From Candidatus Nitrososphaera evergladensis SR1 (lineage in GTDB: Archaea; Thermoproteota; Nitrososphaeria; Nitrososphaerales; Nitrososphaeraceae): a stretch of 64,000 bases of DNA. Of this stretch, positions 10,958 to 17,947 are shown piece after piece. A program made the translations under genes and the position numbers. A model generated the notes under the pieces. The model worked only from the letters and a program-made list of their open reading frames with translations, was not told the origin of the DNA and did not search any database. The stretch is from positions 2,046,001-2,110,000 of the forward strand of contig NZ_CP007174.1 in assembly GCF_000730285.1 (NCBI RefSeq), written 5' to 3'. Each line of letters begins with the position of its first letter. Within the stretch, counting starts at the first letter, position 1.

Positions 10958-11208
10958 AGTTTCTATTGTATAGCATACAGAAGCTAGCATTTGTCGCTAG
11001 TAACCCATGATTTAGGCTCGACCTTGAAAATCCGGCGCGGCCGCTAGAAAACCTGCATAACCTTGCCCACACCTCCTTTCCCTTCATTACCATTCCAAAA
11101 GGAACGTCTCTTCAAAAGCATAGAATTGAACCATATCATTTACTAGCTGCTGAAATACCAATATTTTTAAATTCTCTAATGTATTTTACCATATTTGGGG
11201 ATAGACTT

Positions 11209-11523
11209 ATGTCACAAACAAATATCAGTATTATAGCTGATGCAATGCTGCAAAATCTTAGAGAAAGTTTAGGTGCAGAAGCATACGATATAGTAATGTC
11301 AAGAATAGTTAAGGACTACTTTGGTGAGAAGATAGACATACACACGGCAATAATTCAAAGACCTGAAGTATTTGAAAGTGCATTTGTAGATTTGCTAGGA
11401 CAAATGGGCAGGATTCTTCTTACAAAGTTGTTAGACGACATTTGCCCTGAAAGTATTATAGATCTGCATTATTCAAAAGCTGGCGACTTTGCGAAATATG
11501 TCGTCGCAATCCAGAATGGCTAA
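11209..11523 (+). CDS. Hypothetical protein, paralogue of the gene at 12950
   Basis: A 104-residue helical protein. It aligns over nearly its whole length with the protein at 12950-13303: shared features are IADAxL, DIHTAI/DIRTAI, a Glu-rich FExAF segment and the C-terminal YSKAGDxAKY. The function is unknown. ATG 11209 is preferred to ATG 11179 because the homology starts soon after it. Surrounding DNA is AT-rich compared with the flanking genes. Confidence 0.72.
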   Translation: MSQTNISIIADAMLQNLRESLGAEAYDIVMSRIVKDYFGEKIDIHTAIIQRPEVFESAFVDLLGQMGRILLTKLLDDICPESIIDLHYSKAGDFAKYVVAIQNG

Positions 11524-12678: not shown

Positions 12679-12949
12679 GTAGAATTTTGAATTTTATAAA
12701 ATAAATGATTCATGATATCTAGCACGATTAACAGAAAAATTCTTGCAGACTATCAATTATTGGGTAATACAGTAGCTAGCTATCTTGTTACTCCATCAAG
12801 CTTCAGAAAGACACAGAACTAATGAATGCCACGGCAAGTATGACAGTATGATAGTGTAGAAATGACAATTCATCGTACCTTCTTTAGCAATTAGTACCCA
12901 AAAATGGTTAAATAAGATGTTTGTCTCTCTATACAGTGACACACCGCCC
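12679..12949. other. Intergenic region with a TATA box
   Basis: AT-rich. A TTAAATAAG element about 12908-12916 is the probable promoter of the gene at 12950. Nothing else was found. Confidence 0.4.
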
Positions 12950-13303
12950 ATGGAATCCAAGCCTCATCGAGGGCAGCGACGGCAGCAGCAAGCAATAGCA
13001 GATGCAATTCTGGCCAACATCAAAGAGATCTTTGGCTGGAATGTATACGACATGATGACAAGGAAAATAATGGAGAATTACTTGAATAACAAGATTGACA
13101 TTAGGACAGCGATAGTTGAGCACCCTGCAGTTTTTGAGCGCGCCTTTATCGGGTTGATTGGGCCGCTGGGCGAAAAGTTTCTCGCAGACGTCTGTGAAAA
13201 GGTGCAATCAGAGCTTGACCTTGATCAATCTACACGCTATTCAAAAGCTGGTGACCTTGCAAAATACATCAGAACGGCTAGCAATAGTAGTAGTGCTGCT
13301 TAG
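12950..13303 (+). CDS. Hypothetical protein, paralogue of the gene at 11209
   Basis: A 117-residue helical protein homologous to the one at 11209-11523 (IADAIL, IDIRTAIVEHPAVFERAF, YSKAGDLAKYI). The N-terminus is basic and Gln-rich (HRGQRRQQQ). ATG 12950 is used; ATG 12917 would add 11 residues and cannot be excluded. A possible promoter box lies at 12908-12916. Function unknown; the paralogue pair suggests duplication within this AT-rich island. Confidence 0.72.
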   Translation: MESKPHRGQRRQQQAIADAILANIKEIFGWNVYDMMTRKIMENYLNNKIDIRTAIVEHPAVFERAFIGLIGPLGEKFLADVCEKVQSELDLDQSTRYSKAGDLAKYIRTASNSSSAA

Positions 13304-14627: not shown

Positions 14628-14744
14628 GCAATTATGGTAGAAAAATACGTGAATAGCCTACTTAAACAGGGTTGCGAATTGGAAGTTGAAAGACGATGGA
14701 CTAGGAAGGGCAAGTGTGATCTATGTCGTTATCTTAAAAAAGAG

Positions 14745-14882
14745 TGGGGCCGAAGGGATTTGTCCTGACGCGGGGTTAACCGCAGCCATTTGAACCCTTG
14801 ACCCACGGGTTTCTTTCTCTAACTAGCCCTTTATTGTGTTAGATCTGGAGCCCGTTGCGATGCCTGGCTTCGCTACGACCCC
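14745..14882 (-). tRNA. tRNA-Trp (CCA) with two introns
   Basis: Read on the minus strand from 14882: acceptor GGGGTCG, D-stem GCGA/TCGC, anticodon stem ACGGG/CCCGT with loop C-T-CCA-G-A, T-stem AAGGG/CCCTT with loop TTCAAAT, acceptor CGGCCCC and discriminator A at 14745. Two inserts must be removed: 34 bases at 14811-14844 between positions 37 and 38, the common archaeal site, and about 30 bases (14758-14787, flanked by repeated AAAT) in the T-loop. The mature length would be 74. A TATA-like box lies near 14924-14934 and a six-T run follows the 3' end. Confidence 0.8.
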
Positions 14883-15080
14883 ACCAAGTGTGGCACCGTG
14901 TGTTTTTGATAGCAGAAAGATGTCTGTATAAGTCTTATCATCCTGCTATCGCAAACGCCTTGTCAATTGAACCTCATATTAAACAATTTATTAAATAGAA
15001 AAAATGCACCTAATTTTTCGCTGGCAAGAGTTACTGCGAATCCTCGTAACTTCTTAATATTATAAATCCCGAAGTAATCT

Positions 15081-15504: not shown

Positions 15505-16770
15505 TTACTGCTGTTGTTGCTGTTTCTTGGCGTCTTTGTAGCGGAACTTGTCCAGCTTTACCAGCTGATGGTACGAGCCAAACTGCGACGAATTGACATT
15601 ATCAAGTGCCGACTCGGTTTCGTCGCTTTCATTGCGAAAAGTCTTTAGCAGCTTGTAGGTGGTTGAGCGCTGCGCCGGGATTCTGCCTGATGAGCGTATC
15701 AGCTGCCTTATCTCCCGTGGCCTCATAAGCTGGCCGTGCTGTGCGCCTGCCGCAGTCGAGATGCTCTCGTTTATCAGCGTGCCTCCAAAGTCGTTTGCGC
15801 CGGCGGCAAGCAAGAGCTGCGACATCCTTGCGCCTTCCTTGACCCACGACACCTGGATGTTTGGTATGTGGTTGTTCAGCATTATCCTTGCCACCGCGTG
15901 CATCTTGACCACTTCATTGCCGTCAGCGCCGGCGCGTATTCCCGGGACGGTGTGGTGGCTGTACATAGGCGCTTCCGTGTGGACAAAACTGAGCGGGACA
16001 AACTCGGTAAAGCCGTGCGTTTCTTTCTGGATCTCGCGCAAAAGCGCGATGTGCTCTGCCTTGTGGCGCGACGTCTCGATGTGGCCGTACATTATGGTCG
16101 AAGTAGTTGCGATGCCAAGCGAGTGCGCCTGCTTGATTATCGACACCCAGTCGTCGACCTTTATCCTGCCCGGCGATATCACGTCGCGAAGCGACTGGTC
16201 GAGTATTTCAGCGGCAGTGCCGGGCAGACTGCCGACCCCGGCCTCCTTGAGCATTTTCAGATAGTCAAGGGTCTGCGTGCCGGACCTCACTGCGCCGTAC
16301 AGCACCTCTTCGGGCGAAAAGGCGTGTATGTGCATGTCTGGCAGGTCCTTTTTCACGGCCTTGCAGATGTCGACGTAAAGGTGGCCGTCCATCTTGGGCG
16401 GGAGCCCTGCCTGTATGCACACCTCCGTTGCGCCAAGCGACGCCGCCTCCTTGGCGCGCCTCACTATCTCTTCGTTTGGGAGAAAATAGCCTTCTTCTTC
16501 GCGAAAGTCGCGTGAAAAGGCGCAAAAGCCGCACTGCTTGATGCAGACGTTTGTAAAGTTGACGTTCCGGTTGACCACGTACGTGACGATGTCGCCCACG
16601 GTCCGGCGCCGAAGCTCGTCTGCCACCGTCACGAGCAGGTTCATCTCAAGGCCCGTGCAGTCGAAAAGCGCGATTGCCTCGTCGACAGTTATGTCCTTGC
16701 CGGAAAGGGCGCGGTCAAGCGCAGAAGCCACTATGGGGTCGGCGTTTTTTAGCACGGATTCAAGCGCCAT
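15505..16770 (-). CDS. cofH: FO synthase subunit 2 (CofH)
   Basis: Radical SAM enzyme that joins 5-amino-6-ribitylaminouracil with the tyrosine-derived unit in coenzyme F420 (FO) synthesis. The [4Fe-4S]/SAM motif CxxxCxxC is at C76, C80 and C83 (CIKQCGFC). A TIM-barrel follows, with ATEVCIQAGLPP and AGVGSLPGTAAEIL segments typical of CofH. The C-terminal tail is Gln-rich. It starts inside the end of cofG (11-base overlap), so the two are translated together. Confidence 0.93.
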   Translation of the reverse strand: MALESVLKNADPIVASALDRALSGKDITVDEAIALFDCTGLEMNLLVTVADELRRRTVGDIVTYVVNRNVNFTNVCIKQCGFCAFSRDFREEEGYFLPNEEIVRRAKEAASLGATEVCIQAGLPPKMDGHLYVDICKAVKKDLPDMHIHAFSPEEVLYGAVRSGTQTLDYLKMLKEAGVGSLPGTAAEILDQSLRDVISPGRIKVDDWVSIIKQAHSLGIATTSTIMYGHIETSRHKAEHIALLREIQKETHGFTEFVPLSFVHTEAPMYSHHTVPGIRAGADGNEVVKMHAVARIMLNNHIPNIQVSWVKEGARMSQLLLAAGANDFGGTLINESISTAAGAQHGQLMRPREIRQLIRSSGRIPAQRSTTYKLLKTFRNESDETESALDNVNSSQFGSYHQLVKLDKFRYKDAKKQQQQQ

Positions 16771-17947
16771 TAATTACATATTCCTCCTTTACAAGGCCCG
16801 AGCTGTCAGAAAGCAAGCGCACATACTCTTCAAGACGTTCTGATATAAATCCTCCATCCTTTTTGAGGAGGTATTCCGGGTAAACTGGCAGGCGGGCGCG
16901 CAGGCGCTTGCCCTTTTCCTCCGTGACCTGCTTTACAGAGTCGATTGTAGGCCAAGGAAACTCGGGGTTGACGTGGTCGATTGTGACAGGGGATATTCCG
17001 CCCCAGTCGTTGATGCCTGCGTCGACGTAGCGGCCATAGATTGCAGGGTTCAGGTTTGGAGGAACCTGTATGTTCATAAAAGGCATCACGAGGCGGCAAA
17101 CCGCGACTGCGCGCAGGAAATACTCTTTTTCAGTCGACGCAAAGTTTGCCATCCCCGTGCCCGGCTTGGGCTCAAAGTTTTGCAGTATCACTTCCTGGAT
17201 GTGGCCGTGCTTTTCATGCAGCTCCTTTATCACAAACAGCGAGTCGACAAGCTCCTCTGGCGTCTCGCCGATGCCAACCAATATCCCGGTCGTCATCGGT
17301 ATCCTTAGCTCGCCGGCGCTTGTGAGCGTCTTTATCCTCACCCTTGGGTTCTTGCTTGGCGCGCCTTCGTGGGCCATCCCCTTGCTCATCAGCCGCTCGC
17401 TTGACGTTTCAAGCATGACTCCCATGCTGACGTTGGTGTCGCGCAATTGCGCCATCTCTTTTTTCGTCAGGCTGCCGGCGTTGGTGTGTGGCAGCAGGCC
17501 TGTTTTTGCAAGCACAAGCTCGCTCATTTCCCTGATGTAATCGACCGTAGACGAATGGCCCATTGACGACAGCCACGACCTTGCCTCGCCGTATTTTTGC
17601 TCGGGGCGCTCGCCGGTGACAAACAGCGCCTCCGTGCACCGGGCGCGCCTGCCTGCCTCTGCTATCGCAAGCACCTGCTCAGGGTTGAGCATCGAAAGCA
17701 TCGGGTCGCCCGGCTCTTTTTTGTAAGTGCAGTACGAGCACGTGTCGCGGCAGAGGTTGACAAGATTGATGAATACTTTGCGGGAATACGTTATGATGCC
17801 GCCGGGCCTAGTCAGGTCGCGGACTCGGCCCGCTGCTGTTACGAGCTCCTCGGTGGAGCACTCGGCCATCAGCCGGGCCGCGTCGGGGCGGGTCAGGGCG
17901 CCGGGCCTTTCAACCAATCCTAAAAGAGTTTCCAAGTCAGCCAGCAT
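16760..17947 (-). CDS. cofG: FO synthase subunit 1 (CofG)
   Basis: Radical SAM partner of CofH that completes the deazaflavin ring of F420. The CxxxCxxC motif is at C66, C70 and C73 (CRDTCSYC), followed by the CofG-type segment YKKEPGD. Other family features are ALFVTGERPE and TTGILVGIGE. In many bacteria the two activities are fused in one protein, whereas here they are separate genes, as in most archaea. It is the first gene of the cofG-cofH pair. Confidence 0.94.
   Translation of the reverse strand: MLADLETLLGLVERPGALTRPDAARLMAECSTEELVTAAGRVRDLTRPGGIITYSRKVFINLVNLCRDTCSYCTYKKEPGDPMLSMLNPEQVLAIAEAGRRARCTEALFVTGERPEQKYGEARSWLSSMGHSSTVDYIREMSELVLAKTGLLPHTNAGSLTKKEMAQLRDTNVSMGVMLETSSERLMSKGMAHEGAPSKNPRVRIKTLTSAGELRIPMTTGILVGIGETPEELVDSLFVIKELHEKHGHIQEVILQNFEPKPGTGMANFASTEKEYFLRAVAVCRLVMPFMNIQVPPNLNPAIYGRYVDAGINDWGGISPVTIDHVNPEFPWPTIDSVKQVTEEKGKRLRARLPVYPEYLLKKDGGFISERLEEYVRLLSDSSGLVKEEYVINGA

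Follow-up and report, generated by a model that had tools for sequence, protein, structure and literature searches.

The window analysed here, a stretch of 64,000 nucleotides from the soil archaeon Candidatus Nitrososphaera evergladensis SR1, carries on its minus strand (14882-14745) a tRNA-Trp(CCA) gene interrupted by two inserts (Table 1). The coordinates and the isotype proposed by the first-pass annotation were confirmed, and the sizes and places it had given for the inserts, 34 nt at 37/38 and 30 nt in the T-loop, agree exactly with the Rfam alignment and the sequence letters. It had also held that the gene folds as a tRNA only if both inserts are removed. When the inserts were removed, the Rfam alignment and an ARAGORN run on the joined exons (38 + 21 + 15 nt) yielded a 74-nt cloverleaf with a CCA anticodon, named tRNA-Trp(cca) by ARAGORN, which missed the unjoined gene. 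The CCA tail is not encoded, exon 3 ending at A73. Because A is repeated at the junctions of insert 1 and AU at those of insert 2, the ends of the inserts are ambiguous by 1-2 nt, with the same mature tRNA resulting; the bulge-helix-bulge phase favours 37/38 for insert 1 and 58/59 for insert 2.

Table 1. Features of the tRNA-Trp locus and its surroundings (positions in the window)
Feature	Position	Strand	Description
Exon 1	14845..14882	-	nt 1-37: 5' strands of the acceptor and the anticodon stem, the D-arm between them, and loop CUCCAG, which includes the anticodon CCA; from Rfam alignment; near-invariant in 59 family copies
Intron 1	14811..14844	-	34 nt, at 37/38; its splice motif is relaxed, with C32-G and U33-A retained and A facing C34; the GGGC of its loop is conserved
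Exon 2	14790..14810	-	A38, 3' strand of the anticodon stem, variable region, 5' strand of the T-stem and T-loop bases UUCAA (54-58); from Rfam alignment
Intron 2	14760..14789	-	30 nt in the T-loop (phase 58/59 fits best); a 3-nt bulge is followed by the hairpin UGGC(U)GCGG/CCGCGUCA and by GGAC, the partner of exon GUUC (53-56)
Exon 3	14745..14759	-	A59 U60, 3' strands of the T-stem and the acceptor, A73; from Rfam alignment
TATA-like element ACTTATAC	14926..14933	-	~44 nt upstream of the tRNA-Trp gene; putative promoter element
T6 run	14736..14741	-	just 3' of the tRNA-Trp gene; possible oligo-T terminator; not kept in all family copies
Two adjacent radical-SAM genes	15505-17947		upstream; one with a CofH/MqnC C-terminal domain
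NitrOD2 protein	11179-11523		small protein, Pfam family NitrOD2 (Nitrososphaera output domain 2)
NitrOD2 protein	12917-13303		small protein of the same family, close to the preceding one

In most Nitrososphaeraceae copies of the gene CTTATA is found upstream at a distance (~45 nt) similar to that of the TATA-like element. The leader often contains GATGC, which is conserved in most of the family. With respect to the neighbourhood, the tRNA-Trp gene lies ~50-230 nt after the first radical-SAM gene in loci L032, L034 and L036, and kilobases off in others; the neighbouring CofH-type protein has its nearest named relatives in Nitrososphaera.

The Rfam tRNA model RF00005 aligned end to end (positions 1 to 71) across both inserts; the score was 39.2 bits against a gathering score of 29, with E = 9.3e-05 for the 64-kb window. 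An intact tRNA-Met in the same window scored 72.2 bits. ARAGORN made no tRNA-Trp call on the gene with or without its intron option, either in the window scan or with the gene itself, and lowering its thresholds resulted in wrong calls only. The prediction that a standard search would overlook the gene is thus right for ARAGORN at both intron settings and wrong for Rfam, which matches the full length. Excerpts of a further source describe tRNAscan-SE 2.0 as built for such introns, with a dedicated covariance model for thaumarchaeal non-canonical introns (PMC8450103).

The genome, a single contig of 2,954,373 bases, was searched for other tryptophan tRNAs, another intact copy being what the first-pass annotation had named as counting against its reading. 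None was found by Rfam, BLAST or an exon-1 pattern. No other CCA anticodon was present among the 39 tRNA matches above the Rfam cut-off, whose anticodons were read by eye (many of these tRNAs are intron-bearing, a few readings are uncertain and some isotypes were not recognised); three further matches fell below the cut-off and were left out of the typing. BLAST of the genome with the tRNA-Trp gene, as well as the exon-1 pattern allowing up to 3 mismatches, found one place only. Since intron-rich tRNAs are sometimes missed by Rfam, a second Trp gene with an unusual split could just conceivably have escaped. Many other tRNA genes of the genome contain introns, several of them seemingly at non-canonical sites (e.g. 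loci L027, L176, L177 and L178).

BLAST matched the gene in 58 of 70 Nitrososphaeraceae genomes, including 36 of the 37 high-quality ones; among the 12 genomes lacking a match 11 were less than 90% complete, and one (G055) was 92% complete. Both inserts were present in every complete gene copy (59/59, from 56 genomes), and two additional genes cut by contig ends agree with the two-insert layout as far as they reach. The exons are near-invariant, with a handful of variable positions and 20 distinct mature sequences among the 59 copies, and the introns range in length from 26 to 48 nt (intron 1) and from 23 to 33 nt (intron 2). Frozen exons combined with varying inserts is the pattern that a working tRNA with two removable inserts would leave. 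Probably the common ancestor of Nitrososphaeraceae already had the T-loop intron.

Bulge-helix-bulge folding at the junctions had been suggested as a check of the two-intron structure. At the T-loop junction a 4-bp GUUC/GRAY core can form in all 50 distinct introns. In phase 58/59 the partners of exon bases G53-U54-U55-C56 are the four intron bases preceding the last two: G53 faces C in 34 and T in 16 introns, U54 always faces A, U55 faces A in 40 and G in 10, and C56 always faces G. The 5' bulge has 3 nt (A57, A58 and one intron base), the hairpin beginning at intron base 2, whereas the 3' bulge has 4-5 nt and not the 3 of the textbook motif. Of the distinct introns, 100, 98, 96 and 92% form hairpin pairs 1 to 4, respectively, the means after shuffling being 98, 77, 62 and 73%; the introns are related, so these percentages are not probabilities. 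Sliding the register lowers mean hairpin pairing from 96% to 30-40%, and pair three occurs as AU, GC, GU, UA, UG and CG, that is, with changes on both sides. The minimum-energy unconstrained fold of the whole gene contains the GUUC/GGAC helix, the AAA bulge and the hairpin. The T-arm folded alone keeps the T-stem without the central helix, thus the bulge-helix-bulge core rests more on comparison than on energy.

For the 37/38 site, 45 distinct introns were compared. Pairing is possible for C32 (with G) in 45/45, U33 in 40/45, C34 in 2/45 and C35 in 32/45, and C34 faces A in 41/45; judged from these counts, the site would be a relaxed, poor bulge-helix-bulge. The loop of intron 1 has a conserved RGGC (GGGC in 41 and AGGC in 4 of the 45 introns, with 1.5 expected after shuffling), mostly 11-16 nt from the intron start. 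Inspection by eye of the acceptor strand, the D-loop, the leader and the T-loop intron revealed no pairing partner of GGGC that holds across genera.

Two proteins of the Pfam family PF01974 (EndA) are encoded in the genome, only one of which has the catalytic His. The first (187 aa) closely resembles the catalytic subunit of solved enzymes of the crenarchaeal type and has Tyr, His and Lys at the same positions. The second is 215-250 aa long depending on the start and has Pro where His stands in 1a79. We take these Tyr, His and Lys residues, including the catalytic His, to have their customary roles. According to excerpts of PMC4090602, Thaumarchaeota have an alpha2beta2 EndA, and archaea with such an enzyme are rich in non-canonical introns; the two paralogues would fit this known endonuclease. 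In the pathway that we envisage, alpha2beta2 EndA would make two cuts in the anticodon loop (G37^A and A^A38) and two in the T-loop (A58^A and A^A59), the T-loop cuts each falling after the second bulge nucleotide; both introns would be released, and an RtcB-type ligase would join the exons.

Taken together, conserved exons, inserts that vary yet preserve their structure, the failure of the searches to find a second Trp tRNA and the presence of an EndA pair bear out the original proposal of a tRNA-Trp with two introns. Very probably this is a functional gene, and apparently the only one for tRNA-Trp(CCA) in this Nitrososphaera genome, whose transcript would contain two protein-spliced archaeal tRNA introns. 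ARAGORN's blindness to the gene and an Rfam score low in comparison with that of the tRNA-Met could also be expected if the locus were a pseudogene, a tRNA-Trp in decay that had acquired two insertions while another gene does the work. However, no other Trp tRNA was found in the genome, and in the 59 copies the exons hardly change, the inserts varying but staying paired, which makes decay so improbable as to be nearly negligible. A different view is that the 37/38 intron alone is removed and the tRNA works with an extended T-loop, for which the compactness and conservation of the hairpin could be cited. This we regard as very unlikely: the conserved complementarity between the 3' part of the intron and exon GUUC is what an EndA site needs and has no role in an extension, the insert ranges in length from 23 to 33 nt, and an insert left in place would disrupt the elbow formed by the T-loop and the D-loop.

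Compatible with two spliced introns is the idea that the one in the T-loop is not merely tolerated but was imported or is kept as protection, breaking the 3' half of the tRNA gene that mobile elements use for integration. Thaumarchaeal elements do integrate in tRNA genes, and intron transfer by attP/attB exchange has been proposed, as stated in excerpts of PMC8371274; moreover, T-loop inserts recur in other families. The same excerpts report integration in intron-containing tRNA genes too (PMC8371274), and we consider such a protective role rather unlikely.

Box C/D guide introns of archaeal tRNA-Trp were reportedly described by Clouet d'Orval in 2001. Long introns of this type are presented as box C/D guides in excerpts of PMC2584109, and by analogy the long thaumarchaeal tRNA-Trp introns may act as such guides. 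When 330 genomes of the class were searched for GATGAT...TGGAG following GGCTCCA, which marks the long canonical intron, this signature was found in 179, all outside Nitrososphaeraceae (179/279 outside, 0/51 inside). The Nitrososphaeraceae intron occupies the same canonical 37/38 site of tRNA-Trp as the guide introns (excerpts of PMC2584109) but is only 26-48 nt long and lacks the signature; TGATG was seen in none of the 45 distinct introns, and the combination of C box, D box and anticodon-loop guide was not found in the 37/38 intron of the family. Throughout Nitrososphaeraceae a short, GGGC-bearing intron stands in place of the box C/D-like canonical intron that is common elsewhere.

A loose pattern for a stand-alone C/D guide directed to C34 had 12 matches in the genome (0 in the reversed control). 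The sole match with exact spacing, at genome position 60848, was the one followed up; it lies on the strand opposite to a 933-aa reading frame and was discarded as a chance hit, and no replacement guide was identified. One could imagine that the ancestor of Nitrososphaeraceae swapped a self-guiding box C/D intron for the short GGGC intron and kept or gained the T-loop intron, that anticodon-loop methylation disappeared or came to rely on a separate guide, and that some step yet to be recognised, for instance the excision of the two introns in a set order, depends on GGGC and on the A facing C34. As a whole this scenario is quite unlikely.

The tRNA-Trp genes of other families were sought with two covariance models (R1 and R2), which mostly ranked intron-free tRNAs first, and with anticodon-arm patterns, which were only partly better. 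In a family assigned to Nitrosopumilaceae on the basis of its relatives (f12), 13 of 15 genes have an intron in the anticodon stem (~28/29) plus the long canonical intron, two (genera g46 and g47) are intron-free, and the T-loop is uninterrupted in all 15. Among 30 loci outside Nitrososphaeraceae carrying the long-intron signature, the T-loop was uninterrupted in 25 and inserted in 5, namely four of family f2 (L317-L320) and one of f3 (L326), with junction sequences different from that of Nitrososphaeraceae. The f2 genes have a D-arm insert as well, bringing their inserts to three, and D-arm inserts occur in several other of the 30 loci. Given the T-loop inserts in f2 and f3, this insertion in tRNA-Trp would either predate Nitrososphaeraceae or have arisen more than once.

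Excerpts of earlier papers list archaeal T-arm intron sites at 53/54, 56/57 and 59/60 (PMC4090602), T-arm introns in tRNAs of Caldiarchaeum (PMC3293823) and, in archaeal phyla among which is Thaumarchaeota, pre-tRNAs that bear non-canonical introns (PMC3218864). The intron studied here falls within this documented kind, and its mechanism is well precedented. It shares with the T-arm introns in the excerpts of PMC4090602 and PMC3293823 its short length, a bulge-helix-bulge-type site, in some cases an accompanying canonical intron, and a host with two-subunit EndA; it differs in that the site is best placed at 58/59 and is fixed in the tRNA-Trp of one whole family. The description of the T-loop site as rare must therefore be tempered. 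The thaumarchaeal non-canonical introns of tRNAscan-SE 2.0, of which excerpts of PMC8450103 report 107, come from the same clade, and the present gene may be among them. The listings of a literature search of open-licence PMC papers gave no description of family-wide T-loop intron fixation in tRNA-Trp, of the replacement of its long canonical intron or of the conserved GGGC of the short one, and did not name the present gene.

In an annotation made by a standard tool an essential tRNA of this organism would appear to be absent. Across the class, tRNA-Trp shows a turnover of introns, which are found in the anticodon stem, in the D-arm, in the T-loop or nowhere, and this turnover includes the absence, throughout a family, of an intron type that is believed to direct modification of the tRNA carrying it. 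With their frozen exons, the 59 orthologous two-intron tRNA-Trp genes of Nitrososphaeraceae should show clearly which features the two-subunit splicing enzyme needs.
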